In this document: positions 3,001 to 50,841 of the stretch, piece after piece | Numbering within the stretch: the first letter of the stretch is position 1 | Layout: each line of letters starts with the position of its first letter | DNA from: Bacteroidaceae bacterium | Lineage (GTDB): Bacteria; Bacteroidota; Bacteroidia; Bacteroidales; Bacteroidaceae | DNA length: 53,769 nucleotides | Assembly (NCBI GenBank): GCA_017524545.1 | Contig: JAFXVN010000057.1 | Coordinates: 1-53,769 of the forward strand | Reading direction: 5' to 3' | Notes under the pieces: generated by a model | Database searches by the model: none | What the model was told of the DNA's origin: nothing | The model's input: only the letters and a program-made list of their open reading frames with translations | Program-made: the position numbers and the translations under genes

Positions 3001-3108
3001 ACAGGTCTGCGTGAGTTCGACAAGATTGTGGTCACCAACCGCGAGGACTACGACCGCACCCTTGCCAACCGCAAGACCCTGCTCGACTATGTGGATGGCA
3101 TCTACTAA
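1..3108 (+). CDS. rpoC: DNA-directed RNA polymerase subunit beta', C-terminal part
   Basis: Catalytic beta' subunit of RNA polymerase. The frame is open from base 1, so the gene starts upstream of the window and about 1035 residues are visible. The Mg2+-binding motif NADFDGDQ lies at 223-246. It is followed by the bridge-helix and trigger-loop region ([17 protein letters not shown] near 1585-1630). The second zinc site shows as a Cys in EEDCG and the cluster [13 protein letters not shown] near 1480-1512. The family C-terminus ([11 protein letters not shown]) is intact. The gene would be the last of the usual rpoB-rpoC pair. Its stop is followed at once by a palindromic repeat and then an intrinsic terminator. 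Identification is certain from the motifs; only the 5' part is missing. Confidence 0.98.
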
Positions 3109-3142
3109 AGACCCTCCCCATCCCTCCCTTAAAGGGAGGGGG
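3109..3142 (+). repeat. GC-rich palindromic element, copy after rpoC
   Basis: AGACCCTCCCC head followed by the palindrome CCCTCCCTTAAAGGGAGGG, starting right after the rpoC stop codon. It belongs to the ~34-bp family that recurs about 19 times in the window. It lies upstream of the real terminator hairpin and has no T run of its own. Confidence 0.85.
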
Positions 3143-3149
3143 ATAACCA

Positions 3150-4229: not shown

Positions 4230-5099
4230 ATGATAGACGAAGAAAAAGAAAGATACATAAATCCCTATACCGACTTCGGCTTCAAGAAACTGTTCGGCAC
4301 AGAGATGAACAAGGACTTGCTCATCAGTTTTCTCAATGCCATGTTCAATGGACATGAAGTGGTCTGCAATGTGACTTACCTCAATGGAGAGCATTTCGGT
4401 GAGAGCTATCGCGATCGCAAGGCCATCTTCGATGTCTATTGCGAGAACGAGAAGGGCGAGAAATTCATTGTCGAGATGCAGAAGGCCGAGCAGGACTACT
4501 TCAAGGACCGCAGCGTCTATTATGCTACGTTCCCAATTCGAGAACAGGCACCGCGCGGCAACTGGGATTTCCAATTGAAAGCCGTCTATACGGTGGGCAT
4601 CCTTAATTTCGTGTTCCCCGGTGATGAGTACAGCCTAGAATGCTACCACCACGAGGTGAAGTTAATGGATACAGAAGACAAGCATGTATTCTACGACAAA
4701 CTAACCTTCGTCTATTTAGAAATGCCGAAGTTCAACAAGACAGAGGACGAACTGGTGACGATGTTCGACAAATGGCTCTTTGTCCTGCGCAATCTTTCGC
4801 GCCTGATGGAACGTCCAGCCGCCCTTCAAGAGCGAGTCTTCACCAAGCTTTTCGAGCAGGCAGAGATTGCCCGCTTCACACCGCAGGATGCCCGTGAATA
4901 CGAGGAAAGCGTCAAGATTTACCGTGACTTGACCAATGTTGTAAATACAGCAGAACGAAAAGGCCGGGCAGAAGGTCGGGCAGAAGGATATGAGGAGGCC
5001 AACCTTGCAAACGCCCGTAAGATGAAGGCCAGGGGATTTAACTTGGCAGACATATCTGATATTACTGGCCTGACAATAGAACAGCTGAAGACTCTTTAG
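4230..5099 (+). CDS. Rpn/PD-(D/E)XK nuclease family transposase-like protein
   Basis: 289 residues from ATG 4230; an upstream in-frame ATG at 4134 lies before the promoter box and is rejected. The N-terminus (INPYTDFGFKKLFG, KDLLISFLNAMF) is the hallmark of the Bacteroidetes PDDEXK_2 / Rpn family. The nuclease core reads FDVYCENEKGEKFIVEMQ, with Asp and Glu-x-Gln as the expected metal ligands. The C-terminus has the family tail (ARGFNLADISDITGLTIEQL). E. coli Rpn proteins are RecA-independent recombination-promoting nucleases; Bacteroidetes members are multicopy and often called transposases, but transposition is not proven. The gene is flanked by 23-bp direct repeats, and the last ~45 bp plus downstream DNA is duplicated at 6396-6466. 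Confidence 0.85.
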   Translation: MIDEEKERYINPYTDFGFKKLFGTEMNKDLLISFLNAMFNGHEVVCNVTYLNGEHFGESYRDRKAIFDVYCENEKGEKFIVEMQKAEQDYFKDRSVYYATFPIREQAPRGNWDFQLKAVYTVGILNFVFPGDEYSLECYHHEVKLMDTEDKHVFYDKLTFVYLEMPKFNKTEDELVTMFDKWLFVLRNLSRLMERPAALQERVFTKLFEQAEIARFTPQDAREYEESVKIYRDLTNVVNTAERKGRAEGRAEGYEEANLANARKMKARGFNLADISDITGLTIEQLKTL

Positions 5100-5125
5100 T
5101 CCAATACATTTGACAAACAAAAAGC
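5055..5125 (+). repeat. 3' end of the Rpn-type gene, duplicated at 6396-6466
   Basis: The last ~45 bp of the nuclease gene and 26 bp downstream recur as a near-identical 71-bp block at 6396-6466, with about three differences. The two copies bracket the FISUMP gene in direct orientation. Confidence 0.85.
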
Positions 5126-6349: not shown

Positions 6350-6395
6350 ACTAAACGCAATAATGATACGGCTTCAATAAGGGAAATACCGGAAA

Positions 6396-6466
6396 TCAGA
6401 TATTACTGGCCTGACAATAGAACAGCTTAAGACTCTTTAGTCCAACACATTTGACAAACAAAAAGC
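6396..6466 (+). pseudogene. Remnant of the 3' end of an Rpn-type nuclease gene
   Basis: A 71-bp block nearly identical to 5055-5125. It encodes the last residues of the nuclease (ITGLTIEQLKTL), its stop codon and following bases, with no gene body upstream. It is a scar of a second, deleted copy or of a recombination event. Confidence 0.8.
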
Positions 6467-6630: not shown

Positions 6631-6706
6631 GTATAATGTCGCGAGGCGTTGTGACAAAGTCTTTTCTGCGAGGTGCAAAAGTTGTCGCGGCTGCCTGCAT
6701 AATTAT

Positions 6707-6790
6707 TTTCAAGGCTTGATAATGTATTTCCAAGCCGTGAAAATATATTTTCAAGCTTTGATAATATATTTTCAAGCCTTGATAATTGTT
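6707..6790. repeat. Array of four 21-bp units, copy 1
   Basis: Four direct units of exactly 21 bp, each centred on a CAAGNNTTG-like palindrome (TTTCAAGGCTTGATAAT...). A homologous four-unit array lies at 42141-42224, and the third unit is identical in both. The array ends at the -33 region of the promoter at 6808, so it could be an operator for the HU-like gene. Seven-codon open frames across it (YFQGLKI-type) are a by-product of the 21-bp period. Confidence 0.85.
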
Positions 6791-6815
6791 ATGTGCCGAG
6801 GTTTTCGTATCTTTG
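6786..6815 (+). promoter_or_regulatory. Promoter of the HU-like gene
   Basis: TTG at 6786-6788, a 19-nt spacer and TATCTTTG at 6808-6815, followed by TGGCA. The -33 element is formed by the end of the 21-bp repeat array. Confidence 0.6.
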
Positions 6816-10648: not shown

Positions 10649-10659
10649 CTTCGTTATAG

Positions 10660-10760
10660 TTAAGAATTAAGAGTTAAGAGTTAAGAAAAATACCAAATGC
10701 CATGTAATGAATCAGTGTAAAAACTATCTTTCTTAACTCTTAATTCTTAACTCTTAATTC
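10660..10760. repeat. Inverted heptamer-array element between adaptor and pump genes
   Basis: Four TTAAGAA/G units (10660-10687), a 42-bp core and four inverted units TTCTTAA/CTCTTAA (10730-10757). The core begins AAATACCA and ends AAAACTATCT, as does the core of the element at 37136-37230. The right arm encodes the last residues and the stop codon of the adaptor gene. Confidence 0.85.
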
Positions 10761-12011: not shown

Positions 12012-13637
12012 ATGAAGAAGAGCATCACGCTATGTTTGAGCCTGCTGTGCCTGTGCGTGGGGACGGCAATGGCTGAAGTGAACATCATCCCCAAACCCAC
12101 ATCGGTCGTAGAGAGAGAAGGCGCGTTCCTGCTGAAGGACGGCCTCACCATCGGCTACAACGACGCGAGCCTTGCGCCCGCCGCCACCTACTTGCAGGAG
12201 ATACTTTCACGCGAAACAGGACTGAACTTCAAGATTGGCAAGAAGGGCAAGATACAACTAAGCCTCTCCCCAACCCTCTCCCAAGGAGAGGGGGACGTGT
12301 CTGAGGACTATGAGCTGGAAAGCGACAAGAAGGGTGTCCGCATCTATGCCCACAGCTATCGCGGCATCATCAACGGCATCGCCACTCTGCGGCAGCTGCT
12401 CAATAAAGTTAAAAGTGAAAAGTTAAAAGTGAAAAATAATAGTAACCACTTTTCACTTCCTTGCGTCAGCATCAAGGATTCCCCCAACTTCCATTGGCGC
12501 GGACTGATGCTCGACCCCGTGCGCCACTTCTTCTCTGTAGAGGAGACCAAGCGTCTGCTCGACGAAATGGCACTCTACAAGCTCAACAAGTTCCACTGGC
12601 ACCTCTCCGACAATGAGGGCTTCCGCATGGAGGTGAAGGCATATCCCGAGCTGACGGGCGACACCATGGCATGGCGCCGCTTCAACTATCACGACCGCCA
12701 GTGTCTGGAGCGTGCCTCCAAGGAGAACAATCCCACCATGCTCATTCCCTGGAAGTTCTTCAAGGAAGTGCCGGGCTTCGGCGAACTCTATGGCGGCTAC
12801 TACACGCAGGACGAGATTCGCGACGTGGTGCAGTATGCTGCGGTGCGCGGCATTGATGTTATACCCGAAATCGACATGCCCGGCCACAACGGTTCGGCTT
12901 GCTGGTGCTATCGCTGGTTGAGCTGCACACAGGACGGCCGCGAGCCGCTTTGCTTAGGCAGGCAGACCACCATCGACTTCGCCGAGAAGGTCTATGACGA
13001 GGTCTTCAAGCTCTTCCCCTACGAGTATGTGAGCATTGGTGGCGACGAGGTGAACCGCCGCCGCTGGTCGGAATGCGAGGCGTGCAAGAAACGCATTCAG
13101 GACGAGGGGCTGAAGGATGTCAGCGAGCTGCAGGCATGGTTCACCAAAAAGATGGAGAAATACTTCAACGCTCACGGCCGCCGCATCCTTGGCTGGGACG
13201 AGATTCTGGAGGGCGGCCTCTCCAAGACGGCCACGGTGCACTGGTGGCGCGGCGACCATCCCGACGTAGCCCAGAAATCAACGGCTATGGGCAACGAAGT
13301 GGTGCTCTGCCCCTTCACGTTCCTTTATTTCGACTATGCGCAAGACGACAACACCCTGCGCCATATCTACGACGGCGACATTGTACCCACCGACCTCACG
13401 CCCGAGCAGCTGAAGCTCATCAAGGGTATGCAGGCCAACATCTGGTGCGAGCGCATCCCCACCGAAGCCCGCATGGAGTGGATGGTCTTCCCCCGCGCTT
13501 TGGCCTTAGCCGAGAAAGCCTGGACACCGCGCAGCGAACAGAACTGGGATGACTTCCTGCCCCGACTGAAAGCCCACCTGAAACGGCTCGATGCAATGGG
13601 TATCCAATACCGTCCCTTGCAGACTAAGAGACCGTGA
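12012..13637 (+). CDS. Secreted GH20 beta-N-acetylhexosaminidase
   Basis: 541 residues from ATG 12012. A signal peptide (residues 1-20, ending TAMA) is followed by the GH20b domain (IIPKPTSVVEREGAFLL) and the catalytic barrel. That barrel contains FHWRGLMLDPVRHFF, KFHWHLSDNEGFRMEV, VIPEIDMPGHN and the catalytic Asp-Glu pair in SIGGDEVNRRRW; it ends GMQANIWCERI. It removes terminal GlcNAc or GalNAc from glycans outside the cytoplasm, as in mucin or chitooligosaccharide use. Two repeat-coded peptides interrupt the N-terminal part in frame: [11 protein letters not shown] from a palindromic element (12261-12295) and VKSEKLKVKN from heptamers (12408-12435). Both fall before the catalytic residues, so activity is probably kept. 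Confidence 0.93.
   Translation: MKKSITLCLSLLCLCVGTAMAEVNIIPKPTSVVEREGAFLLKDGLTIGYNDASLAPAATYLQEILSRETGLNFKIGKKGKIQLSLSPTLSQGEGDVSEDYELESDKKGVRIYAHSYRGIINGIATLRQLLNKVKSEKLKVKNNSNHFSLPCVSIKDSPNFHWRGLMLDPVRHFFSVEETKRLLDEMALYKLNKFHWHLSDNEGFRMEVKAYPELTGDTMAWRRFNYHDRQCLERASKENNPTMLIPWKFFKEVPGFGELYGGYYTQDEIRDVVQYAAVRGIDVIPEIDMPGHNGSACWCYRWLSCTQDGREPLCLGRQTTIDFAEKVYDEVFKLFPYEYVSIGGDEVNRRRWSECEACKKRIQDEGLKDVSELQAWFTKKMEKYFNAHGRRILGWDEILEGGLSKTATVHWWRGDHPDVAQKSTAMGNEVVLCPFTFLYFDYAQDDNTLRHIYDGDIVPTDLTPEQLKLIKGMQANIWCERIPTEARMEWMVFPRALALAEKAWTPRSEQNWDDFLPRLKAHLKRLDAMGIQYRPLQTKRP
12261..12295 (+). repeat. Palindromic element inside the hexosaminidase gene
   Basis: AGCCTCTCCCC head and CCCTCTCCC-AAGGAGAGGG palindrome, 35 bp, read in frame as [10 protein letters not shown]. 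Confidence 0.85.
12408..12459. repeat. Heptamer array with inverted partner inside the hexosaminidase gene
   Basis: GTTAAAA GTGAAAA GTTAAAA GTGAAAA (12408-12435), followed 12 bp later by the inverted CACTTTTCACTT (12448-12459). It is a miniature inverted pair carried in coding sequence. Confidence 0.8.
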
Positions 13638-14775: not shown

Positions 14776-15771
14776 ATGGCAGAATCAATCGACATTCGCG
14801 AACTAAACGAGCGAATAGAAAGACAAAGTGGCTTTGTCACGAATCTGGTGACAGGCATGAATCAAGTAATCGTAGGGCAGAAGCATCTGATAGAGTCGCT
14901 GCTCATCGGCCTCCTGAGCGACGGACATATCCTGCTCGAAGGTGTGCCGGGCTTGGCAAAGACAATGGCTATCAAGACGCTGGCACAGCTGGTTGACTCC
15001 AAGTTCAGCCGCGTGCAGTTCACGCCCGACCTGTTGCCTGCCGACGTTATCGGCACGATGATTTACAGTCAGAAGGACGAGAAGTTCCTGGTTGAGCAAG
15101 GTCCCGTCTTCGCCAACTTCGTGCTGGCCGACGAAATCAACCGTGCTCCGGCAAAGGTGCAGAGCGCCCTTTTGGAGGCTATGCAGGAGCGTCAGGTGAC
15201 GATTGGCAAGAACACCTTTAAGCTGCCAAAGCCCTTCCTCGTGCTTGCCACGCAGAACCCCATCGAGCAGGAAGGTACTTATCCCCTGCCCGAGGCACAG
15301 GTCGATCGTTTCATGCTGAAGGTGGTCATCGACTACCCGAAGCTCGAAGAGGAAAAGCTCATCATCCGTCAGCAGATTAAGGGCGAGGCTCAGGAAGTGA
15401 AGCCCGTGATGGGAACAGACGAGATAATGAAGGCGCGCGAGATTGTCCGCGAGGTTTATCTCGATGAGAAGATAGAGCAGTACATCGCCGACATCGTGTT
15501 CTGCACACGCTATCCCGAGAAGTACGGCCTGAAGGAGATAAAGGACTACATCGAGTTCGGCGGCTCGCCCCGTGCCAGCATCAACCTCGCTCTGGCAGCC
15601 CGTGCCTTCGCTTTCATCAAGCGTCGCGGCTATGTCATCCCCGAGGATGTGCGCAGCGTGGCCCACGACGTGCTCCGTCACCGCATCGGCCTCACCTACG
15701 AAGCCGAAGCAAACAACGTCACCAGCGAAGAAATCATCAGCAAAATAGTAAATAAAGTCGAGGTTCCCTAA
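14776..15771 (+). CDS. moxR: MoxR-family AAA+ ATPase of the bat operon
   Basis: 331 residues. Walker A GVPGLAKT (56-63), Walker B VLADEINRAP (Asp119-Glu120), sensor 1 region LVLATQNPIEQEG, arginine region PLPEAQVDRF and a C-terminal lid domain. MoxR ATPases act as chaperones that work with VWA-domain proteins; here it heads the locus with DUF58 and the VWA proteins BatA and BatB, as in Bacteroides fragilis. The gene is cytoplasmic and full length. It is separated from its usual neighbour, the DUF58 gene, by an inserted DUF559 cassette. Confidence 0.95.
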   Translation: MAESIDIRELNERIERQSGFVTNLVTGMNQVIVGQKHLIESLLIGLLSDGHILLEGVPGLAKTMAIKTLAQLVDSKFSRVQFTPDLLPADVIGTMIYSQKDEKFLVEQGPVFANFVLADEINRAPAKVQSALLEAMQERQVTIGKNTFKLPKPFLVLATQNPIEQEGTYPLPEAQVDRFMLKVVIDYPKLEEEKLIIRQQIKGEAQEVKPVMGTDEIMKAREIVREVYLDEKIEQYIADIVFCTRYPEKYGLKEIKDYIEFGGSPRASINLALAARAFAFIKRRGYVIPEDVRSVAHDVLRHRIGLTYEAEANNVTSEEIISKIVNKVEVP

Positions 15772-15772
15772 A

Positions 15773-15806
15773 AGACCCACCCCGACCCTCCCTTAAAGGG
15801 AGGGAG
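15773..15806 (+). repeat. Palindromic element, left end of the DUF559 cassette
   Basis: AGACCCACCCCG head and CCCTCCCTTAAAGGGAGGG palindrome, 34 bp. Its reverse complement recurs at 16211-16244 with a single mismatch. Confidence 0.9.
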
Positions 15807-15820
15807 AAAAGTCGCTGATA

Positions 15821-16195
15821 ATGATGAAATATGAAACTGCATCACCAGACATTTATCCTTTACTCAGGGCTTTTGCCCGAGAGAACAGGAAGAATGCAAC
15901 GGTGGCAGAACAAGTGTTGTGGGAGCACATACGGCATGATGCGCTGGGGGTGAAGATACAACGGCAACACATTATTGGTGACTTCATTGTTGACTTCCTT
16001 GCACCAAACGAAAGATTGATTATTGAGGTTGATGGTGCATACCATTCGGAATCTCGGCAAAAGGAGGATGACGAATTGCGTACGGGAATACTTGAGAAAA
16101 AGGGTTATAAGGTGATTCGCTTTTCAAATGAAGAAGTATTATACGATACTGATATGACTATAAAGAAGATAAAGGAGGCGTTGAAACATGAATGA
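15821..16195 (+). CDS. DUF559-family endonuclease-like protein, inserted in the bat operon
   Basis: 124 residues (123 if the second Met is used). It matches the DUF559 / Vsr-like PD-(D/E)XK fold: ARENRKNATVAEQVLWEHIR, VKIQRQHIIGDFIVDFLAP, LIIEVDGAYHSE, then GYKVIRFSNEEV. The Asp of GDFIVDF and Glu-Val-Asp of IIEVDG are the expected metal ligands. Codon use is visibly more A/T-rich than in the flanking bat genes. It is enclosed by 34-bp inverted repeats (15773-15806 and 16211-16244) and splits moxR from DUF58, genes that are normally adjacent. This suggests a recent arrival as a small IR-bounded cassette. The biochemical role of DUF559 proteins is not established. Confidence 0.85.
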   Translation: MMKYETASPDIYPLLRAFARENRKNATVAEQVLWEHIRHDALGVKIQRQHIIGDFIVDFLAPNERLIIEVDGAYHSESRQKEDDELRTGILEKKGYKVIRFSNEEVLYDTDMTIKKIKEALKHE

Positions 16196-17105
16196 TGCTC
16201 AGCGTGATAGCTCCCTCCCTTTAAGGGAGGGCCGGGGTGGGTCTGTTGATATCTTAAAGAAGGTTCGGCAGATTGAGATTAAGACTCGTGGCCTGAGCAG
16301 CAATATCTTTGCGGGCGAGTACCATTCTGCCTTCAAGGGACGCGGCATGACCTTCTCCGAGGTGCGCGAGTACCAGTACGGCGACGATATCCGAGACATT
16401 GAGTGGAATGTGACGGCACGCTTCGGGAAGCCTTACGTCAAGGTCTTTGAGGAGGAACGCGAGCTGACGGTGATGCTCCTTGTCGATGTGAGCGGTAGCC
16501 TCGACTTCGGTTCCGTGAAGCAGTTCAAGCGCGACATGGTGACGGAGATTGCTGCCACGCTGGCCTTCTCTGCCATCCAGAACAACGACAAGATTGGCGT
16601 CATCTTCTTCTCGGACAAGATAGAGAAGTTCATCCCGCCCAAGAAAGGTCGCAAGCACATCCTGTACATCATCCGCGAACTGCTCGACTTCCAGCCCGAC
16701 AGCAAGCAGACGAACATCGCATACGCCTTGGAGTACATGACGCAGGCCATCAAGCGCCGTTGCATCGCCTTTGTGCTGAGCGACTTCCTCGACGAGCATG
16801 TGTTCCTGCAGCCCCTCTCCATCGCTGCCCACAAGCACGATGTCGTGGCCATTCAGGTCTATGACAAGCGCGTGGCAGAGCTGCCCAACATCGGTTTGCT
16901 CAAAGTGCGTGATGCCGAGACAGGCGAGGAGCAGGTCATCGACACCAGCAGCCGGGCTGTCCGCGAGGCACAGGCACGCTGGTGGAAGCAGCAGACGATG
17001 CGGCTCAAGGACACCTTCAGCCGCAGCCAAGTGGATGCCGTCAGTGTGCGTACCGACCAGGATTATGTGAGTGTGTTAAGGGGGTTGTTTGCAAATCGTA
17101 AATAA
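16188..17105 (+). CDS. DUF58 domain protein of the bat operon
   Basis: 305 residues. The body matches the DUF58 family: LKKVRQIEIKTRGLSSNIFAGEYHSAFKGRGMTFSEVREYQYGDDIRDIEWNVTAR, shown here in parts, is its signature N-terminal region. A degenerate VWA-like fold follows (MLLVDVSGSLDFGS). It works with MoxR in the bat locus; its molecular function is unknown. The ATG at 16188 overlaps the DUF559 gene by 8 bp. The first ~20 residues (with SSLPLREGRGGS) are encoded by the right-hand palindromic element at 16211-16244. No other start lies between that element and the conserved region, so the cassette seems to have replaced the original start. Confidence 0.9.
   Translation: MNDAQRDSSLPLREGRGGSVDILKKVRQIEIKTRGLSSNIFAGEYHSAFKGRGMTFSEVREYQYGDDIRDIEWNVTARFGKPYVKVFEEERELTVMLLVDVSGSLDFGSVKQFKRDMVTEIAATLAFSAIQNNDKIGVIFFSDKIEKFIPPKKGRKHILYIIRELLDFQPDSKQTNIAYALEYMTQAIKRRCIAFVLSDFLDEHVFLQPLSIAAHKHDVVAIQVYDKRVAELPNIGLLKVRDAETGEEQVIDTSSRAVREAQARWWKQQTMRLKDTFSRSQVDAVSVRTDQDYVSVLRGLFANRK
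16211..16244 (-). repeat. Palindromic element, right end of the DUF559 cassette
   Basis: Inverted 34-bp copy of 15773-15806. It is translated in frame as the N-terminus of the DUF58 protein. Confidence 0.9.
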
Positions 17106-17106
17106 A

Positions 17107-17135
17107 AGCCTCCCCCAGCCCCTCCCAAGGAGGGG
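17107..17135 (+). repeat. Palindromic element between DUF58 and the BatD-like gene
   Basis: AGCCTCCCCCAG head with CCCCTCC-CAAG-GAGGGG palindrome, right after the DUF58 stop. Confidence 0.85.
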
Positions 17136-17155
17136 TGAACAGAAACGAGAATAAT

Positions 17156-19430: not shown

Positions 19431-19543
19431 AGCCTCCCCCATCCCCTCCCAAGGAATAGCCTCCCCTAACCCCTCCAAAGGAGGGGGAATAAATTACCAA
19501 ATAGTAAATAAGTCGTAAATCGTAAATAGTTAAATCGTAAATT
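19431..19543. repeat. Two palindromic elements plus heptamer array between batA and batB
   Basis: A 3'-truncated copy (19431-19455) and a full copy (19458-19488) of the GC-rich element stand in direct tandem right after the batA stop. They are followed by GTAAATC heptamers (19504-19543) up to the batB start. Confidence 0.8.
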
Positions 19544-27600: not shown

Positions 27601-28219
27601 GCTTACGCTCCCCAATTGCTCCGCTTCTAACGGGCAATTGCCCCTTAAAGGGGAGACTTCCCATCCCGAGTCCTCCCCCTTTAAGGGGGAGTTAGAGAGG
27701 GTCTGTGGCTACTACCGCCACATCTATATGCTGCTTTACGAGCAGGCTCAGAGGCAGACCGACCAGAGTCTTTTGCGTATGCAGCCAATAGCCGTCGGCA
27801 ACCTTTTCGCCTACGCTTCCAAGACGCACGGCATTGTGTGTCAGCCTACTGAAGCATGGGTGAGAGGGGACGAAACATTGCTCCAGCTGTTCTTCGACCA
27901 GATGCTTGCAGTCGATAAGGCAAACGCTGCACTCTCTGCCGAAGAGCGCGACGGCATGATATACATTATATATAATGTGGCGGGGCGGCAGCTCACACCA
28001 GAGCAGCTCTCCAACCTCTTCTCGCCTCAGACGGAGCGACTGGAGTATCTCGTCATGCGGCAGATTGTGCGCGAACATGATGCCGCTTGCGGTCATCCCG
28101 GCCTGCGCCTCGTGGCAGAGAACACGGAAGGGGGCTACAGAATAACCTTCTCGCTGCAAAAGGAAAAACCTCGAAATAACGAAATAACGACATCCCGTAA
28201 TAACGACATAACGACATAA
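24662..28219 (+). CDS. Large TPR sensor kinase lipoprotein (DUF5112-HATPase-DUF5113 type)
   Basis: 1185 residues. The lipobox signal (LVLAAC, Cys17) is followed by a TPR-rich sensor (about 20-400), a TM (about 412-431) and a coiled coil. A complete HATPase follows: N box NTLVDNARKF (~610), DTGIGLS (~643) and GFGFGIMNC (~676). A second unit follows: a hydrophobic signal-like segment (VLLLFFAVHCSLFAFS, ~719), a helical sensor, another TM (~830-855), a strong His-box IKHETMYFPSRI (~955) and a C-terminal degenerate ATPase-like region. The layout fits Bacteroidetes kinases called DUF5112/DUF5113. The phospho-acceptor-like His lies after the intact ATPase, an unusual order. A palindromic-element pair is inserted at ~975-1015, and the C-terminus (NNEITTSRNNDITT) is coded by octamer repeats. 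Confidence 0.85.
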   Translation: MKAKAALFSILLVLAACTSVGERNAMSVEEACDRAYRLRYTDASASLQAAKQAYTLSEGNPDGQAEALNNMAYVAYQQMRYDQALHLLQKVYGFSRNQLELLCADVLTMKIMQRIGRGKSFFNSRLRAGKRIGRILSEEGSLTSRQKLRLHYALTEFHIVASTYYYYLGQDEAARREIDDAARYVNLETDTTQWLYYHYMLGSGGLVEGTPEEVTIAEFDHLIRVYTLARVRHFAYFEANALQSLSAMIADSLRADLLKQQRLDAYSYLYEHHKRWQSDGTLPSRYQFAAALSHHAVSLFRQYNDLFQTACALRTLGEVYFAAGHYDEALQSFRSALHLASYHRRSPYQVKPWLAGIHENLSLTYSALGDKRLADTHRNTYLDLLDQSRQNRELDSRKALLGQEARSEQIQFALLLLLVVVVVVLSVVYYRQVNHRSRSFEQRVRGISASEECQQARQRLMELQQQSEERLEEGREACEVMRQRILQQQQRHILQRTKLSVVYAIIPYLDRVIAEVKKLDEKAENAAPHLTYIQELCSGIMTINDRLTEWIQVQQGRLGLQVTRFPLADVLQVISMQQYAFAQQQLTLDIPETDLQVKADKPLTLFMVNTLVDNARKFTPAGGKVSVALDATDSYVEVSICDTGIGLSPEDVQTLNDSKVYDPNLIGTKNASKGFGFGIMNCKGIINSYRKLSSLFAVCDFGVESRQGKGSRFWFRLPRVLLLFFAVHCSLFAFSQQELFDSAYAANLQSRYAEAYQYSDSAIRLMTEPVDTPLLVSLYNEQAIAAQALGWWDAYRQSNAECVRLHRLYSTDGSLASDCQRLEKMTADSRVLYVLIVLLLIASLALFYMVVLRHRLRHRASLDDLYQRLLAVLRAFPENASELDQELQAIIGSLEQPQLRQSVQELRQMLSSGLAKVNETEEAAQETEEKAQRWRFEHDRLYVMNQILDNSLSTIKHETMYFPSRIKQMVDSSKSFGPPSLTLPNCSASNGQLPLKGETSHPESSPFKGELERVCGYYRHIYMLLYEQAQRQTDQSLLRMQPIAVGNLFAYASKTHGIVCQPTEAWVRGDETLLQLFFDQMLAVDKANAALSAEERDGMIYIIYNVAGRQLTPEQLSNLFSPQTERLEYLVMRQIVREHDAACGHPGLRLVAENTEGGYRITFSLQKEKPRNNEITTSRNNDITT
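27636..27704. repeat. Palindromic elements inside the sensor kinase gene
   Basis: CCCCTTAAAGGGG (about 27642-27655) and a full inverted copy (27672-27704) with CCCCCTTTAAGGGGG and the GGGTCT end. They add the in-frame peptide [22 protein letters not shown]. The preceding CGTCGCTTACGCTCC stretch also looks repeat-derived. Confidence 0.8.
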
Positions 28220-29632: not shown

Positions 29633-31932
29633 TAAATGAAAGTCAGCTTGAAGCGGTGCTTTGCATCGATGCCCCTTCGCTTGTCATAGCAGGTGCGGGC
29701 AGCGGCAAGACGCGCGTCCTCACTTACAAGATAGCCTATCTGCTGGAGCAGGGTATGCAGCCGTGGAACATCCTTGCGCTGACCTTTACCAACAAGGCTG
29801 CCAAAGAGATGCGTGAGCGCATCGCCACGCTCGTATCGCCCGAGAAGGCCGACAAGCTCTGGATGGGCACCTTCCACAGCGTCTTTGCCCGCATCCTCCG
29901 CCTCGAAGGGCACCGTCTGGGCTACGACAACAACTATACCATCTACGACACTGCCGACAGCCAGAGCCTCCTTAAGCTCATCATTCGCGAGATGAACCTC
30001 GACGAGAAAATCTATAAGCCCAGTGCTGTGCAGGGCCGCATCTCCGCAGCCAAGAACCGCCTCGTGCTGCCATCGGGCTATATGTCCGTGCGCGAGTTCC
30101 GCGACAGCGACCAGATGACGAAGCGCACCCTCATGCCCGAGATATACAGCCGCTACCAGGAACGCTTGAAGCAGGCCAATGCTATGGACTTCGACGACTT
30201 GCTGCTGAACACTTGGCTGATTCTCAAGCACAACCCGGAGGTCGCAGCACATTGGCAGGAGCGTTTCCACTTCGTGTTGGTCGATGAGTATCAGGACACC
30301 AACTTCGCACAGCATCAGATTGTCTGGCTCCTCACCAATCAGCGGCAGCGGGTCTGTGTCGTGGGCGACGATGCCCAAAGCATCTACAGCTTCCGGGGAG
30401 CCGACATCGACAACATCCTGCACTTCCAGGAAGCCTACGTCGATGCCCGCCTCTTCAAGCTCGAGCGCAACTACCGCTCCACGCAAACCATCGTGAATGC
30501 CGCCGGCAGCCTGATTCGTAACAATCGCGAGCAGATAAAGAAGCAGGTCTTCAGCGAGAAGGAAGTGGGCAACCCCATTGCGCTCTTTTCGGCTTATAGC
30601 GATAAAGACGAGGCCAACATCATCCTTCGCGAAGTGCAGCGAGCGCATCGTGCGGGCATCCCCTATCGCGGCATAGCCGTGCTCTACCGCACCAATGCGC
30701 AGAGCCGCCAGATAGAGGACGGCTTCCTCTACGGTCGCGTGCCTTATCACATCTTCGCCGGCATGTCGTTCTACCAGCGCGAGGAAGTCAAGGACATGCT
30801 CTGCTATCTCCGTCTCACGGTCAATCCCTACGACGAGGAATCCCTGCGCCGCATCATCAACAAGCCTGCCCGAGGCATCGGCGACGCCACCGTCCGCAAG
30901 CTCTTCGATGCAGCCAGAGCCGAAGGAAAAGCGGTGTGGGAGGTAATAGCCTCCCCCGTCCCCTCCCAAGGAGGGGTGACTGGCTGTAAAACTCCCTCCC
31001 CTTTGGGGAGGGCAGGGGAGAGGCTGTCCTTATTTGCTGCCATGATTTCCTCCTTCCACGAAGACGCTGCCACCGTCGATGCCCATACGCTTGCCTTGCG
31101 CATCGCAAAGGAGAGCGGCTTGCAGGAAGCGATATTCAGCGGGCACGACCCGGAGGATGTCTCTAAGCAGGAAAACTTGCAGGAGATGCTCGATGGCATC
31201 GCTGCCTTCGTTGCCGACAATCGGGAGCAGGGGCAAGGCATCCTTCTCAGTGACTACCTGCAAATGGCGAGCCTTGCAACCGACATGGATCGCAATAATG
31301 TGGACAAGGATGCCGACTGCGTCAACATGATGACCATCCACACCGCCAAGGGTTTGGAGTTCCCTGTTGTCTTCATTGCAGGCTTGGAGGAAGGGCTCTT
31401 CCCGAGCGAGATGTCGGAGGATTCGCCCCGCGCCCTCGAGGAGGAACGCCGCCTTTTCTATGTCGCCCTGACCAGAGCCGAGCGACAGGTGGTGCTCACA
31501 TACGCCAAGTCGCGCTTCCGCTACGGCAAGATGGAGTACATGCGCCCCAGCCGCTTCATCCGCGAGATACCGGCCGAGTATTATAAGGGGCAAGGAGTAA
31601 GGGACATGGGGCAAGAGAATAGTTTCAGGTCTCCTGTTATGCCGGATTTGCAATCCGGCAGAAGCGAATTCACCAGACTCTCCCCCAATCCCTCCTTTGT
31701 GAGGAAGGGAGGAGTTACCCCTTCGGCGGAGAAACCATCAGCCCCCCTCCCTACAAAGGAGGGATTGGGGAAGGACCTGGCACCAGGTTCTGTCGTCCTT
31801 CACGACCGCTTTGGCCGTGGAGTGGTGCAGGCCATCGAGGGCACAGGCATTGATGCCAAAGCCACCGTCAACTTCGAGAATGCCGGCACCAAAGTCCTCT
31901 TGCTTCGCTTTGCCAAGCTTACCGTCCAGTAA
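29620..31932 (+). CDS. uvrD: UvrD/PcrA-type superfamily 1 DNA helicase
   Basis: 770 residues, close to family size. Walker A AGAGSGKT (~25-31), motif II VDEYQD (~221), GDDAQSIYSFRGAD, motif IV-VI (NYRST, TIHTAKGLEF, YVALTRAERQ) and a C-terminal tudor-like domain (GSVVLHDRFGRGVVQAIEGTG). It is a 3'-5' helicase of nucleotide-excision and mismatch repair. Two repeat-derived insertions are translated: ~443-469 (ASPVPSQGG...PSPLGRAGERLS) in the 2B region, and ~672-718 in the linker before the tudor domain (RLSPNPSFVRKGG...PLPTKEGLGKD). The start codon and first residues (MNYEL) come from the AATTATG heptamers. All helicase motifs are intact. Confidence 0.95.
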   Translation: MNYELNESQLEAVLCIDAPSLVIAGAGSGKTRVLTYKIAYLLEQGMQPWNILALTFTNKAAKEMRERIATLVSPEKADKLWMGTFHSVFARILRLEGHRLGYDNNYTIYDTADSQSLLKLIIREMNLDEKIYKPSAVQGRISAAKNRLVLPSGYMSVREFRDSDQMTKRTLMPEIYSRYQERLKQANAMDFDDLLLNTWLILKHNPEVAAHWQERFHFVLVDEYQDTNFAQHQIVWLLTNQRQRVCVVGDDAQSIYSFRGADIDNILHFQEAYVDARLFKLERNYRSTQTIVNAAGSLIRNNREQIKKQVFSEKEVGNPIALFSAYSDKDEANIILREVQRAHRAGIPYRGIAVLYRTNAQSRQIEDGFLYGRVPYHIFAGMSFYQREEVKDMLCYLRLTVNPYDEESLRRIINKPARGIGDATVRKLFDAARAEGKAVWEVIASPVPSQGGVTGCKTPSPLGRAGERLSLFAAMISSFHEDAATVDAHTLALRIAKESGLQEAIFSGHDPEDVSKQENLQEMLDGIAAFVADNREQGQGILLSDYLQMASLATDMDRNNVDKDADCVNMMTIHTAKGLEFPVVFIAGLEEGLFPSEMSEDSPRALEEERRLFYVALTRAERQVVLTYAKSRFRYGKMEYMRPSRFIREIPAEYYKGQGVRDMGQENSFRSPVMPDLQSGRSEFTRLSPNPSFVRKGGVTPSAEKPSAPLPTKEGLGKDLAPGSVVLHDRFGRGVVQAIEGTGIDAKATVNFENAGTKVLLLRFAKLTVQ
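30948..31025. repeat. Inverted pair of palindromic elements inside the helicase gene (1)
   Basis: A direct copy (30948-30979, AGCCTCCCCCG head) and an inverted copy (30991-31025, ending GGGGAGAGGCT), 11 bp apart, read through in frame. Confidence 0.9.
31641..31773. repeat. Hairpin plus inverted pair of palindromic elements inside the helicase gene (2)
   Basis: GCCGGATT-TGC-AATCCGGC hairpin (31641-31659), a direct copy (31675-31713, AGACTCTCCCCCAATCC head) and an inverted copy (31742-31773, ending GGATTGGGGAAGG), 28 bp apart, all in coding sequence. Confidence 0.85.
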
Positions 31933-32839: not shown

Positions 32840-35161
32840 TCAAGGGACAATGACCTTTCTGCCGTTTTTGATGCAGATACCCCGAGGCCATTTACCATTT
32901 ACAATATTTCCGCTGAGGTCATAACATTTACCATTTGACGATTTACCATTTACCATTTCTCCCTCTCCTTTGGAGAGGGCTGGGGTGAGGCTGATTCCAT
33001 CTGCATCATCCTTGCTGACATAGATGATGTCGCCGGGGGCGTCGCACTTCAAGAAGCATTCGCCTCCTGCGACTGTCTGCCCGTCTGTCCGACGGAACAC
33101 ACGATAGCCGTCGTCTTCTGTCAACAGGTATTCGTTGCCGCCTGCTGTGGCATAGGGGGTATGCTGACCTACGAGAAGTCCTTCCTGATAGGAGGGTAGG
33201 ATGGCATGAGCTACACCGCGATAGATATAGTCGCCGGCCTCTGCCATAATGATATATGGCGTATTGGCTTGGACGGTGGAGAGCGGTTCACTGCACATCG
33301 TCCATTGTACATCATTCTCCGTTCCGATGCCAGTAACGGTGCTGGCACTAACGCCTTCGGGGAGTTCGGCATCGAAGGGGAGTATCAGCGTGCTGATGTT
33401 CTGTCCTGTGGGGATGGTGACGGTCAGCTCTATTTCCGAGGCAGGGACGATGGACAGCCCTGTGCGGGTGGGTCGCAGCAGTGTTCCGCTATTCGTCGGG
33501 ATGAAGGTGTTGCTCTGATTGGATGTGCCGAGGTACAGGTCGCCGTCCATGAGCGTTATCTCTCCCTCTTCGGTATGGGAAGGTATGGCGGTGATGGTGA
33601 TGGCTTCGGCGGGCTCTGTAGTAAGGACGAGACTGCCGTCCACTTCTCCAAGATAGTACTTGTCCCGATAGTCATGGACAAAGGCTCGAAGCTGGTTGCT
33701 GTATGTGTCCGAAGCGCTCTCGAAGCCGAAGGCAAGGGTAAAGACAGACAGCCCGGGCTTTTGGCTGAACTGCATCGTCATGTCTTCGCCGATGGTGACG
33801 GCATTGCCTGTCCATTTGGTTGAGAGGAGGCTTATCCAGTCGTCGCGCATCAGGATGTTGAACAGCTCGCCGGTTTTCGGAGCGATGAATGCCTGTTTGT
33901 CGAATTTGTCTTTGGCTTGTTCAAGGGCCAGTATGTCCTTGCTGTAGTGACCTTTGAGCGTGTTGTCCAAACCATCGAGGTTGCTCAGGTCGCTCTTGGT
34001 AAGAAAGTCTGCCAGTTTGTCGTTGTTGTATTTGTCCGTTGCCGAGAGAAGCGCGTTGTTGTAGTTCTCGGTGAGCGTCCTGTCGTATGAGAAAGCGGGC
34101 TGTGCGGCTGTTCCCTCCGCATCGGCATTGTAGTTGGCTTCGATTGCAGAATGTCCCTTGAGTGCTTCTGCCAGGTCTGCCTTTGCAGTGGAGAGGATGG
34201 TTTCGGCAGCCCGAAGGCCAGTGAGCTGCAGGTTGTCTGCACGGTATTGCTCGGTTCCGATGAATGGCACCATTCCTGCATTCATACCGATGATGACGAC
34301 ATCCCCTTCGTCGATGATGAAGCGCAGCTCTCCATCGGAGAAGGTGTTGAGGTTCTGGCAACTGGCAGACTCAGTATATAGCTTGCCGTTCTCGATGAAA
34401 ACCCCAATGTACTGCGTCATGTCGAAATTAGAGAGAAGTTCTGTCCAGTCGGTGGTGTTTGAGAGCATGTCGCCAAGAATCTCCTGCACGATATTTGTGG
34501 GTATAACTAAGGCATTGAGGTGAACCTTGTTCAGGCGGAAGAAGCCCGGATTGCAGGCGACCTTGGCGCTGAAGCTGTAGATGCCGGCAGGCAAGCCGAT
34601 GAGGGGCTGCATTATCAACTGACTGCTGTTCAGGTAGTATTTCTGGTCCCCGCCCGAGATGGCATTCCCTCCGGCATTCTCGATGGCTTTGGTGTCCTCG
34701 TTCCAATTGTTCACGGAGACGGCGTTGACCAATCCGCTCACGTCGCCGCCACTAATGGCGTTGGTGATGTCGGAGAGACCTATCTGGCTGAGGTCGAATC
34801 CGATACTGTACCATAGGGAAAGGTCGCCAGTGTCGAAAGAGTGATTGCCCACCAAGCCGGTAAAGACCTGTTCGTCCTGAAATGCTCCGGTTGTTTGAAG
34901 GTAGCCCAGCACACCAGCCCTGAGCGCAGTCATGGTGCGGCGCATGGCGTCCTTTGTCTGGCTCACGCCAAGCGAAGCCTTTGCTATTGAAATCATCGAG
35001 CGCATGGCAAAGCTGTCGCCTATCTTACTGATGTTGTCAATGGCAGCAAGGCAGGCTGTGTTGTAATCAGCAAGGCTGTCGGCCTCTGTCTCGTCTTGTG
35101 CAAAGGCAGCAGGAGAGACGATTCCAAAACACAGAATCAAAGAGAAGATGAGTTTTTTCAT
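32840..35161 (-). CDS. Large exported protein with C-terminal sorting-like tail
   Basis: 773 residues. A signal peptide (MKKLIFSLILCFGIVSPAAFA) is followed by a helical region, beta-rich domains (LVGNHSFDTGDLSLWYSIG, a carbohydrate-binding-like start; LPAGIYSFSAKVACNPG) and repeated TIP/TVTIPTGQNISTLILPFDAELPEGV segments. The C-terminus (CYDLSGNIVNGKWPRGICIKNGRKVIV) resembles the tails of secreted Bacteroidetes proteins recognised for type IX-like sorting. Just before this tail, repeat DNA is translated (SLTPALSKGEGEMVNGKSSNGK): a palindromic element at 32959-32992 and CCATTTA heptamers. Function unknown. Its start lies 26 bp after the stop of a lipoprotein gene on the same strand, so they are likely co-expressed. 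Confidence 0.8.
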   Translation of the reverse strand: MKKLIFSLILCFGIVSPAAFAQDETEADSLADYNTACLAAIDNISKIGDSFAMRSMISIAKASLGVSQTKDAMRRTMTALRAGVLGYLQTTGAFQDEQVFTGLVGNHSFDTGDLSLWYSIGFDLSQIGLSDITNAISGGDVSGLVNAVSVNNWNEDTKAIENAGGNAISGGDQKYYLNSSQLIMQPLIGLPAGIYSFSAKVACNPGFFRLNKVHLNALVIPTNIVQEILGDMLSNTTDWTELLSNFDMTQYIGVFIENGKLYTESASCQNLNTFSDGELRFIIDEGDVVIIGMNAGMVPFIGTEQYRADNLQLTGLRAAETILSTAKADLAEALKGHSAIEANYNADAEGTAAQPAFSYDRTLTENYNNALLSATDKYNNDKLADFLTKSDLSNLDGLDNTLKGHYSKDILALEQAKDKFDKQAFIAPKTGELFNILMRDDWISLLSTKWTGNAVTIGEDMTMQFSQKPGLSVFTLAFGFESASDTYSNQLRAFVHDYRDKYYLGEVDGSLVLTTEPAEAITITAIPSHTEEGEITLMDGDLYLGTSNQSNTFIPTNSGTLLRPTRTGLSIVPASEIELTVTIPTGQNISTLILPFDAELPEGVSASTVTGIGTENDVQWTMCSEPLSTVQANTPYIIMAEAGDYIYRGVAHAILPSYQEGLLVGQHTPYATAGGNEYLLTEDDGYRVFRRTDGQTVAGGECFLKCDAPGDIIYVSKDDADGISLTPALSKGEGEMVNGKSSNGKCYDLSGNIVNGKWPRGICIKNGRKVIVP
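32890..32992. repeat. CCATTTA heptamers and palindromic element in the exported-protein gene
   Basis: Heptamers CCATTTA (32888-32958, interrupted) and an inverted 34-bp palindromic element (32959-32992, ending GGGGTGAGGCT), all within the coding region near its 3' end. Confidence 0.85.
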
Positions 35162-37115: not shown

Positions 37116-37135
37116 TTATGATGATTCTTAGTTAT

Positions 37136-37230
37136 GAGTTAAGAATTAAGAGTTAAGAAAAATACCACACGCAATAATGGTCGGCATCCAAAACTATCTT
37201 TCTTAACTCTTAACTCTTAATTCTTAACTA
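37136..37230. repeat. Inverted TTAAGAG heptamer element between SRPBCC gene and argH
   Basis: Left array (37136-37159), 40-bp core with AATACCA near its start and ending AAAACTATCT, and right inverted array (37200-37230). It has the same design and core ends as 10660-10760. Confidence 0.9.
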
Positions 37231-37235
37231 TATTA

Positions 37236-37719: not shown

Positions 37720-37786
37720 CATTTACCATTTAGTCATTTACCATTTACCATTTGTTCCCCCTCCTTTGGAGGGGTTAGGGGAGGCT
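37720..37786. repeat. CCATTTA heptamers and palindromic element after pyrE
   Basis: Heptamers at 37720-37753 and an inverted palindromic element at 37757-37786 (ending GGGGAGGCT) fill the gap between pyrE and the SRPBCC gene. Confidence 0.85.
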
Positions 37787-37790
37787 GAGG

Positions 37791-42092: not shown

Positions 42093-42140
42093 TGTTTTGA
42101 TGCCTGTTATAAAAGTTCTTCAGGCGGGTTACATAATTAT

Positions 42141-42224
42141 TATCAAGGTTTGAAAATATATTTCCAAGTCTTGATAATATATTTTCAAGCTTTGATAATA
42201 TATTTTCAAACCTTGAAAATAGTT
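42141..42224. repeat. Array of four 21-bp units, copy 2
   Basis: Four 21-bp units homologous, in order, to 6707-6790. The third units are identical, the second units share TTCCAAG, and the left flank CATAATTAT is shared. It lies between the DUF3990 module and the fusion-enzyme gene; 42225-42434 holds no gene. Confidence 0.85.
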
Positions 42225-42473: not shown

Positions 42474-45400
42474 ATGGTAAATTCTATCGATTGCTTTATT
42501 CTTTGGCAGAGCGACGAACAGGTGGCTGGGACAATGCAGAACCTGCTGGCCGACGATAATGTGAAGGAGGTGAATTTCCTGCGGGAAGACGCTCCTGGCA
42601 GCACCAAGACGATTAAATACATTGCGGAGAAGGCGACAGCCCCCTATACATTATTATATAGTAAGTACGATACGCTGCAGCTTGGCTATCATGCCCTGAC
42701 GCGCCTGCTCACGATTGCCGAGGACAGCGGGGCACTGATGCTCTACAGCGACCACTGGGAAGTGAAGAGTGAAGAGTTAAGAGTTAAGAATGAAAGTAAC
42801 AATTTAGATGGCGAGAGAAATCCAAGTTCTCGTTACTCTTCGCTTGTGCCAGTGCCTCTCATTGACTACCAGCTTGGCTCTGTGCGCGATGACTTTCAGA
42901 TGGGGTCTGTGCTGCTCTTCCGTACGGAGGTGCTGAAAGAGTATGCGGCACAAGAGAACTTGCACAATTACCAGTATGCGGCACTCTACGACCTCAGGCT
43001 CTTTATCAGTCGCAAACAGCTTCCTCTGCATGTTGACGAGTTCCTATATACTGAGGTTGAGCACGATACGCGGTTGAGCGGGCAGAAACAGTTCGACTAT
43101 GTTGACCCGCGCAACCGTGCTCGCCAGGTGGAGATGGAGCGGGCTTGCACGCGGCATTTGCGTGCCTTGAATGCCTATCTGCATGGCGATGAAAACGATG
43201 AGGTGAACCTCAGCGAGGGTGAGTTCGCAGTGGAGGCTTCTGTGGTGATTCCTGTCCGCAACCGCGAGCGCACCATAGAAGATGCCATCCGTTCGGCGCT
43301 CTCGCAAGAGACGACGTTCCCCTTCAACGTCATCGTCATTGATAACCACTCCACAGATGGCACGACGGACATCATCGAAAGGGTGAAGCACTCTTTGCTT
43401 ATCCATATCATCCCTGACCGCGATGACCTGGGCATCGGCGGATGCTGGAACATGGCTGTGCATCATCCGCAGGTGGGGCGTTTCGTGGTACAGCTTGACA
43501 GCGACGACCTCTACTCTTCGCCCCACACCTTGCAGCGCATGGTGGATGCCTTCTATGCCGAGGGTGCGGCAATGGTGATAGGTTCCTACCGAATGTGCGA
43601 CTTCCAGCTCAACACTCTGCCGCCTGGCATCATCGACCACCGCGAGTGGACGATTCAGAACGGACGCAACAATGCCCTGCGAATAAATGGCCTGGGCGCA
43701 CCTCGTGCCTTCTTCACACCCGTCCTCAGAGAGTTGCAGATACCCAACACCAGCTATGGCGAGGATTATGCGTTGGGTTTGATGATAAGCCGCAGGTATC
43801 GCATCGGACGCATCTACGATGAGGTGTATCTCTGTCGCCGATGGGAGGGCAACAGCGACGCGGCTCTCAGCCAAGACAAAATCAACCGTAACAACACCTA
43901 CAAAGACCATCTCCGCACGCTTGAAATCAAGGCACGCCAGCAGCTCAATCAGCTTTGGCAACACCAGGTGACGGCCGAGGAAATGGAGGCGTTCTTCCAG
44001 AAGGAATTGGAGGAATGGCCAGAAGCCGCCGAGCGGTACAAGGCTCTGGAGAATTGCGTACAAAAGACCCTCTCTGTCTCCCCCTTAAAGGGGGAGGATT
44101 CCCTCCCTTTAAGGGAGGGCTGGGGTGGGTCTTTTATCGTACAGTGGAACCCTGCCCGCATCGTCTCTACAGGAGCTGCCATCGACAAGGAGAGCATCAA
44201 CCGGCGGCCATGCTTCCTCTGCGACAACAACCGCCCGAAGGAGCAGCATAAGCTGATGACGGAGAAGCACTACCAGATTCTCGTCAACCCCTATCCCATC
44301 CTGCCGCAGCACTTCACCATCCCGATGCGAAGACATGCGCCGCAGAGCATATACAGCTCGTTCGGTACGCTTCGCCGCATGGCTTGGAACATGCCGCGTC
44401 ACATCCTCTTCTACAACGGCCCTCTGTGCGGAGCTTCGTGTCCCGACCACATGCACCTTCAGGCGGGAAGCCGGGGTATCGTGCCGCTGGAACGTGACTG
44501 GCAGATGTACGAAAAGGGTCTGAAGAAACTCTATCCGCTGACGGGCGAGCAGATGGCTTCGATGGAGGAAGCCGGCAACGTGGGCAGCCGTCCGGGACTC
44601 TATCTCCTGGAGGGGTATGTCTGTCCCGTTTTTGTCATCCGAAGCCTGCCTGCAGAGAGCGACAGCCTTCTCTGCCAGCGCGTTTATAAGGCCTTGCCCA
44701 TTGTGGGCGACGAGACGGAGCCTCGCCTAAACATCGTCAGCTGGCGGCAGGAGGGCACATCCGGTCGTCCGGACGAAATCGTGACGCTCATCTTCCCCCG
44801 CAGCAAGCACCGCCCGGACTGCTATTATGCAGAGGGCAAGGAACAGTTGCTGATAAGCCCGGGTGCACTCGACCTGTGCGGCCTCCTCATCACGCCTCGC
44901 GAACAGGATTTCAAGGCTATAACGGCGGAAAAGGCTGCGGACATCCTGCGGGAAGTGACCCTGAGCCGAGAGGAACTGAAGCCAGTAATAGAAAGCCTTT
45001 CCCCAACCCTCTCCCAAGGAAAGGGAGAAGAGCCGCAGCCGTTGACTTCGTCGAGCGGTTGCTTCACCTCTCCTTTGGAGGGGATGGGGGAGGCTTCTGT
45101 ATCCGTGGGCATCATGAAGGACACCGCTATCCGCTTCTGCATGAACAGCCTCTATCACGCCAAGGGCAACGAAGTCATAGGCGAACAGGTGGCCGAATAT
45201 ACCGATGGCGGCATCCGCTGGCGGGACAATGTGTATCGCGAGCTGACGTTCAGGGGCGAGGGTTCTTTCACCCTCCACGGCGTCACCATCGGGCAGAAGT
45301 TCCATTGGGAGCGGCAGGAGTCGCAGACCTTCCAGGGCATCCTCAAGCTCGTGGTCGATGAGGACAAGATTGTCGCTATCAACATCCTTCCCGTGGAGGA

Positions 45401-50833: not shown

Positions 50834-50841
50834 CAAATTTA
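50834..50841 (-). promoter_or_regulatory. -7 promoter box of the Sua5-type gene
   Basis: TAAATTTG followed by CAG on the minus strand, 23 nt before ATG 50810; it supports the shorter start. Confidence 0.55.

Follow-up and report, generated by a model that had tools for sequence, protein, structure and literature searches.

Bacterial genomes commonly contain short palindromic repeats. Those of the repetitive extragenic palindromic (REP) type are tied to REP-associated tyrosine transposases (RAYTs), and in the portion of a 2013 survey cited here the GTAG class alone has a proposed enzyme, the CGTC class lacking a dedicated transposase (PMC3733652). The CGTC REPs are described there as having 8-9 bp stems, as mostly paired with some intragenic copies, and as occurring in Bacteroidetes and alphaproteobacteria. 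Rickettsia palindromic elements (RPEs) are, in the cited part of their description, palindromes of ~150 bp that lie in frame within many unrelated proteins and encode a conserved peptide (PMC10969869). A DUF559 gene was earlier assigned to the EDxHD nucleases, according to the relevant passage of that work (PMC9403480). The window analyzed here is the whole 53,769-nt contig JAFXVN010000057.1 (assembly GCA_017524545.1) of a Bacteroidaceae bacterium. It holds a cassette of ~470 bp, a DUF559 gene between two inverted palindromic arms, in the junction between moxR and a DUF58 gene. Sequence comparisons indicate that the cassette is probably (probability roughly 0.7) an autonomous selfish element with one Vsr/EDxHD nuclease gene between its own palindromic arms and with non-autonomous derivatives. 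No published description of an arm-bounded DUF559 element was found in the open-access literature, in agreement with the initial annotation of the window, which knew of no system pairing DUF559 with these repeats.

The element works like REP/RAYT systems and like insertion sequences (ISs) with miniature inverted-repeat transposable elements (MITEs), and it fails the defining tests of both in enzyme, tag and target duplication. Like REP/RAYT systems (REPtrons, REP doublets forming hairpins [REPINs] and bacterial interspersed mosaic elements [BIMEs]), it combines few enzyme genes flanked by repeats with high-copy short hairpins, often in head-to-head pairs and with intragenic copies. The RAYT analogy drawn in the initial annotation is a good one for function and does not extend to membership: the RAYT enzyme is a HuH tyrosine transposase, whereas the enzyme here has a PD-(D/E)XK/Vsr-type fold outside the Y1 family, and the GTAG tag at the hairpin foot is by eye not constant here, where a C-rich tail is found instead. 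Unlike REPs, the arms consist of a tail and a C-rich stem and bound an element of ~470 bp. The 8-9 bp stems, pairing and intragenic copies are shared with CGTC REPs; by eye, against the description in the cited portion of the survey, the arms have neither the CGTC tag nor the AT first pairs nor the CCA tail of that class (PMC3733652).

ISs and MITEs share with the element the terminal inverted repeats around one enzyme gene and the short arm-only copies, which here match an element over 29 nt of arm (L047 compared with four pairs) and over 2-4 bases inside. Unlike a DDE-type IS, the element encodes another enzyme fold, makes no target duplication and loses target bases. In-frame insertion into unrelated proteins is as in RPEs, which by their description differ in that the element here carries a nuclease. 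By fold and profile the nuclease belongs with the EDxHD enzyme I-Bth0305I; unlike I-Bth0305I, it has no intron and no DNA-binding extension, is bounded by its own palindromes and occupies many sites. It is thus related by fold to homing endonucleases and is not confined to one site. DUF559 or DUF559-like proteins also include E. coli YcjD and N. gonorrhoeae NGO0050 (3hrl). None of the known kinds compared here combines these parts with this enzyme.

Anatomy of the moxR-DUF58 cassette

The initial annotation had recognized a small A/T-rich DUF559 gene between moxR and DUF58, bounded by 34-bp inverted repeats with one differing base. Direct reading and Pfam confirm the gene in this position, with a GC content of 41.6% compared with 53.1% for the window. 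The 34-nt arms are read directly at 15773-15806 (+) and 16211-16244 (-) as an inverted pair with a single A/G mismatch, and a wider stretch (15770-15825 and 16192-16247) is 82% complementary. Each arm begins with an unpaired C-rich tail and continues into a hairpin with an 8-bp stem. The left arm folds as single-stranded DNA at -8.7 kcal/mol (z -3.5). The protein is a member of PF04480 (113.6 bits, cut-off 20.6), and profiles identify the neighbors as AAA_3/MoxR-type and DUF58.

Comparison with cassette-free sites shows that the start of DUF58 in the window replaces the start seen in relatives, and the predicted protein begins MNDAQRDSSLPLREGRGGS-VDILK. The same moxR cassette in a second genome (L061 in G035) has a frameshifted nuclease with the DUF58 start and the right arm still in frame, as if the host gene had come to rely on the element's 3' end. 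The window's genome (3.6 Mb in 85 contigs) contains three DUF559 matches, all bounded by an inverted arm pair whose sequence is specific to each. The third (L003) has lost most of its nuclease and retains arms identical over 37 nt.

DUF559 genes are mostly bounded by cognate arms

The left 250 bp of each DUF559 locus was aligned with the reverse complement of the right 250 bp, and the same measurement was made for control ORFs (open reading frames) of the same loci. The 127 Bacteroidota loci omit those at contig ends (L014, L026, L028 and L033), one duplicate and one with a short flank, and retain some redundant slices of one element. Inverted flanks with a score of at least 14 were present at 97 of the 127 loci and at 8 of 300 control ORFs; with a score of at least 20, the counts were 82 of 127 and 5 of 300. 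Inverted arms therefore accompany DUF559 genes on both sides far more frequently than they do other ORFs, the comparison that the initial annotation had proposed as a check.

Within an element the two arms resemble each other, and arm sequence covaries with the protein. The arm comparison kept 84 of 89 pairs, preselected by score; the best match of a left arm was its own right arm in 48 of the 84, and the cognate ranked in the top three in 73. Arm similarity within one genome was 0.73 for cognate arms (18) compared with 0.36 for non-cognate arms (42). Across elements, more similar proteins go with more similar arms (Mantel r 0.27, p <= 0.0005).

Arms were located with a simple detector and with a covariance model, both tuned on these arms; the detector had been relaxed after its first version missed the cassette arms, and its counts are tuned to this arm family. 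In a phylum-wide sample, 170 of 296 genomes have DUF559. Among 15 loci drawn from 47 matching plasmid and chromid records (Cyanobacteria, Alphaproteobacteria, Deinococcota and Photobacterium), the detector placed an arm within 300 bp of DUF559 in 13. An arm lay within 300 bp of 6 of 6 DUF559 genes in six 40-kb stretches, compared with 57 of 2,226 other 900-bp windows. In L258 and L270, from a Pseudanabaena plasmid, the cyanobacterial arms have another sequence (GCCCCCTAAATCCCCCAATTCTGGGGG) on a similar tail-plus-hairpin plan, and arm copies alternate on both sides of DUF559.

Occupied and unoccupied sites

Relatives were drawn from 61 genus assemblies that are 61-97% complete and mostly metagenomic, and the comparisons are between species, not strains. 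The moxR gene has matches in 57 of the 61, and 30 loci were compared: 2 carry the cassette (G000 and G035), a relic arm remains in 1 (L082), and 27 have the moxR-DUF58 junction without a cassette, the empty site that the initial annotation had suggested looking for. Outside these loci, G020 has moxR and DUF559 pieces on one contig. Of ~120 DUF559 places in the genus, 30 loci and 20 further regions were examined. An element is found at the start of gmk in 5 of 30 loci. The joined flanks of seven other insertions gave junction-spanning matches in many relatives, and all those examined were unoccupied.

Nucleases that are 80-89% identical and have near-identical arms precede different genes (L041, L087, L094 and L096). 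Conversely, the same junctions, at the starts of genes that we take from sequence motifs to be argC, leuC and gmk, hold nucleases merely 45-50% identical. Among 49 elements with a same-site partner, 23 have their nearest DUF559 relative at that site. In a tree with few columns and with bootstrap not settled, all 11 RecG rows fall in one clade and 6 of 7 labeled gmk rows group together; two of these six are duplicates (the duplicates in the tree are L157/L015 and L139/L024). The combination of site-bound clades with copies elsewhere indicates that some lineages stay at a site and others move. A phage or plasmid origin was rejected, the window protein having matches in 3 of 50,697 records from phages and in 47 of 72,556 from plasmids.

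Relative to unoccupied sites, the spacer between stop and start codons is replaced. The unmatched stretch in the relative measures 2 to 59 bp with a median of 19.5 bp (30 comparisons, nine insertions) and 10 to 23 bp at the site of the window cassette. There is no target duplication; the mean longest flanking match was 1.68 compared with 1.78 in permuted data (p 0.83).

The right arm is usually open in the host reading frame

Most of the elements studied occupy tight operon junctions or the interior of genes, oriented in the same direction as the host. Reading outward from the right end, 78 of 82 elements have an open frame of at least 300 nt; the same holds for 2,958 of 5,480 random positions and for 156 of 482 midpoints of intergenic regions. 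In 75 of 79 elements the host frame stays open across the entire right arm, and 69 have an in-frame start codon before the arm. The DUF559 frame itself continues into the host gene in 15 of 84 elements and is embedded on both sides in 8 of 84. The downstream gene can usually, as these frames predict, be expressed as an N-terminal fusion, or the whole element may be read through.

Pfam detected both DUF559 and a host protein in 9 of the 9 ORFs given, out of 14 candidates. The hosts are RecG, three class I tRNA synthetases, methylmalonyl-CoA mutase, an AAA_11/12 helicase, methionine synthase (MetH), an aldehyde dehydrogenase-MaoC protein and a GH31 enzyme. DUF559 also lies in frame inside the host proteins of L176, L180 and L189, which, judged by a motif, look like the type I restriction subunit HsdR.

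At the right end of the gmk insertion, the end of the arm (GGGGGAGGCT) and the native sequence (ATGGGGAGGCT) are strikingly identical, and no such identity is present in L052. Right-end microhomology was not counted as evidence.

Arms without the gene

The covariance model identifies 13 other full-length arms in the window (E <= 0.02), where the initial annotation had counted about 17 further gene-free copies of a single repeat; the arms belong to several families. The simple detector found 12 arms in the window compared with 0, 0, 0, 0, 0, 0, 1, 0, 0 and 0 in ten block-shuffled copies, so that arm abundance in the window is beyond chance. The closely spaced inverted pairs also described at first are present at 30948/30991 (gap 10), 44065/44098 (overlap 2 bp) and 44994/45064 (gap 35). 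The 3' junction of DUF58 bears arm-like sequences that, by eye, differ among the window, L055/L059/L064, L076 and L081, and most other loci have none there; in the relatives L055, L059, L064, L076 and L081 these sequences went unflagged by the detector.

A 442-kb sample, 12.3% of the window's genome, contains 67 arms by the detector, or ~545 in the genome if the rest is alike. Only seventeen are similar to arms of the three resident elements, four of them being those elements' own. Neighboring arms less than 60 bp apart were convergent in 11 cases and tandem in 1; across 806 kb, they were convergent in 12, divergent in 1 and tandem in 8. Within the sample (L276-L295), 48 of the 67 arms lie within ORFs of 100 aa or more that were called mechanically; many of these ORFs may be spurious.

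An arm pair of 100 bp occurs in four copies (L276:1945, L278:17563, L284:7816 and L293:13831). Each has a 34-bp spacer that starts with TG and ends with GCA, and the right arms equal the arm of a full DUF559 element from another species (L047) over 29 nt. These pairs are the empty forms of the initial annotation and are MITE-like; together with the internally deleted L003, they bear out its view of loaded and empty forms of one element.

Arm number follows the presence of the nuclease across the genus. DUF559 presence was defined as a match of at least 70 bits, and three genomes with only weaker matches (G011, G057 and G060) were counted as without. Per-genome arm counts came from the covariance model, with up to 114 candidates scored in each genome, and high values are therefore minimum figures. 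The median was 84.5 arms in the 34 genomes with DUF559 compared with 6 in the 27 without (p 6e-7, Spearman 0.66); arm-rich genomes mostly have DUF559, as the initial annotation required. The DUF559 count of G059 was taken as 6 and is listed as 7, which is the highest either way and leaves the rank tests unchanged.

The nuclease

The AlphaFold2 model of the window protein has a pLDDT (predicted local distance difference test) of 88. The nearest folds are 3hrl (N. gonorrhoeae NGO0050), the closest solved structure, and the catalytic domain of I-Bth0305I, the latter matched by Foldseek with E 1.8e-5 and TMt 0.77 and by sequence profile with E 1e-7. E. coli Vsr is a weaker fold match (E 0.13). Glu29, Asp57, Glu68, Asp70, His74 and Asp83 (E29, D57, E68, D70, H74 and D83) are invariant in 51 sequences, and these acidic and histidine residues are the putative active site. 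PADLOC returned weak matches to DpdF and to a homing endonuclease model.

As far as sequence can tell, the arms bound the gene, match each other and also occur alone and as short convergent pairs, close copies of the element precede different host genes, and the same junctions are unoccupied in relatives. We infer that the nuclease moves the arms and the element; it is the likeliest agent because it is the one protein found between the arms. The nuclease would recognize the arm hairpins, either as single-stranded hairpins or as cruciforms, and cut there. The freed or copied element may then enter a second break, where joining would remove between a few and some tens of bp of target. The nuclease would act in trans on solo arms and mini-elements. 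Having taken over the host start codon, the element would be costly to lose cleanly.

Alternative explanations

DUF559 could instead be a free-standing homing endonuclease that cuts the unoccupied allele and is copied by flank recombination, the arms being unrelated, tolerant host palindromes. The fold and profile match to I-Bth0305I fits this explanation, as do the site-bound recG (11 of 11 rows) and gmk (6 of 7 labeled rows) clades, with their bootstrap not settled, and the striking identity between the arm end and the native gmk start. Homing is nevertheless unlikely: closely related nucleases stand before different genes, one site has been entered by nucleases of 45-50% identity, the arms are cognate to each nuclease, arm-only pairs exist and just 3 of 50,697 phage records match. 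Strict site-specific homing was rejected because similar nucleases precede different genes, although the recG and gmk clades are largely site-bound. Somewhat more doubtful again is the proposal that another enzyme, such as a HuH/RAYT transposase, moves the arms and that DUF559 is a passenger between two of them. Just 6 of the 61 genomes of the genus have Y1_Tnp matches above 60 bits, the association of DUF559 with arms recurs in several phyla, and arms and protein covary; in its favor, some arm-rich genomes have no DUF559, many arms here are of families that have no DUF559 member in this genome, a Y1 match at E <= 0.001 is present in 23 of the 61 (above the cut-off in 18), and REP palindromes elsewhere are tied to RAYTs in the cited portion of the survey (PMC3733652). 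A RAYT or other Y1 enzyme as the driver is disfavored by the 6 of 61 count, which was made without a search for arms beside the Y1 genes. A host-beneficial Vsr-type repair or defense nuclease kept by selection, with the palindromes as operon regulators or terminators, is very improbable. The Caulobacter protein VsrA and the weak PADLOC matches noted above would suit a host role, against which stand the patchy presence among relatives, arms that are open in frame for host proteins with DUF559 inside some of them, and 67 arms in 442 kb of which all but a few lack the gene.

Several observations weigh against a selfish element driven by its own nuclease. The evidence lies between species, with no movement seen within one species, and the replaced spacer was judged from other species rather than from the exact pre-insertion sequence. 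Thirty of the 127 loci score below 14, among them Flavobacteriaceae RecG insertions, in which the left arm is still visible, and short-arm loci. In the phylum-wide sample, 16 of 28 loci score at least 14 with no matched control (28 of 30 were counted, L182 and L186 lying at contig ends), and about four of the 16 resemble other long inverted repeats. Preselection of arm pairs by score inflates within-pair similarity, and the same preselection enters the frame tests. For E. coli ycjD, the detector reports no arm, and inspection by eye suggests a single possible palindrome. Fifty of the 67 sampled arms match none of the three resident DUF559 arm types; by eye, some of the fifty equal arms found on DUF559 elements of other species. 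The arms of L002, one of the resident elements, escaped the detector. Inside the arms, the 100-bp pairs share only 2-4 bases with L047. Among the 38 genomes in which 20 or more arms were counted, eight lack a DUF559 match reaching 70 bits; the assemblies of these eight are 61-87% complete. Four genomes with DUF559 have fewer than 20 arms by this model. The window's genome has four Y1 matches, weak as most matches at E <= 0.001 are. The Caulobacter DUF559 protein VsrA is tied to cytosine methylation and SOS, a host role, in the cited part of its description (PMC12907096). Confidence in the selfish element, and in the broader proposal given below, is lowered slightly by the phylum-wide sample, by arm families that have no nuclease in the genome and by the shortness of the sequence shared inside the 100-bp pairs.

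Implications

Compared with the initial annotation, the in-frame right arm, insertion inside proteins, spread over phyla and multiplicity of arm families are new. The broader proposal is that DUF559 nucleases autonomously drive a third superfamily of palindromic repeats, untagged and present in several phyla, one that moves without HuH, DDE or recombinase chemistry and is adapted to reading frames, capturing start codons or becoming domains of essential proteins; the odds on this are about even. If it holds, many stretches like 'SPLGEGRGEG/SLPLREGRGG' in annotated proteins would be footprints of DUF559 elements. A family annotated as of 'unknown function' is tied to, and co-abundant with, a large class of untagged palindromes and so becomes a candidate enzyme for them, which may help explain bacterial repeats of unexplained origin. 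If it mobilizes DNA, the protein would be a compact mobile-element enzyme of ~120 aa, and we know of no transposase with a Vsr/EDxHD-type fold. The element would also be a selfish one that persists by fusion to important genes, tRNA synthetases, RecG and MetH by Pfam and presumably guanylate kinase by its motif. Such fusion would bear on gene-start annotation and on the origin of N-terminal extensions and inserted protein domains. The element would drop to a REP or IS variant if the mover were a known transposase acting in trans.

Features and other repeats of the window

Table 1. Cassette, neighboring genes and further arms in the window
Feature	Position	Strand	Remark
moxR, host gene upstream	14776..15771	+	stop codon abuts left arm
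Left arm	15770..15806	+	tail AAAGACCCACCCCGA and hairpin CCCTCCCTTAAAGGGAGGG
DUF559 nuclease, 124 aa	15821..16195	+	second ATG at 15824; PF04480 E 5e-33
Right arm, inverted left-arm copy	16211..16247	-	
DUF58 ORF	16188..17105	+	first ~20 codons (MNDAQRDSSLPLREGRGGS) are the element 3' end including the right arm
Solo arm, cassette-arm family	3106..3143	+	detector and covariance model
Solo arm, other family	12258..12295	+	detector and covariance model
Solo arm, DUF58 3' end	17103..17138	+	detector and covariance model
Solo arm	19454..19490	+	detector and covariance model
Solo arm	27670..27704	-	covariance model
Convergent pair, two different arm types	30944..31028	.	10 bp (model) or 17 bp (detector) apart
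Solo arm	32958..32995	-	detector and covariance model
Solo arm	37754..37790	-	detector and covariance model
Abutting convergent arm pair	44065..44135	.	covariance model
Convergent arm pair, 35 bp apart	44994..45096	.	right arm weak, E 0.25

The window contains a second, A/T-rich repeat family built of ~7-nt units (TTAAGAG, AAGTGAA and ATAATTC) at 10656-10757, 37114-37232, 50834-51018 and other places. This unit repeat also forms inverted pairs of 32-36 nt that are 30 to 92 bp apart, and similar A/T-rich units fill the moxR-DUF58 junction in the relatives L055 and L057-L059. Two 153-nt copies (6662-6814 and 42096-42248) are 77% identical, and each contains an imperfect palindrome of two 47-48-nt arms that are 79-85% complementary with no spacer. 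A 72-nt direct repeat (5054-5125 and 6395-6466) is 96% identical at a distance of 1,341 bp, and a 12-bp tandem repeat (AAAACAGCCAAG) extends across ~100 bp at 32407-32514.

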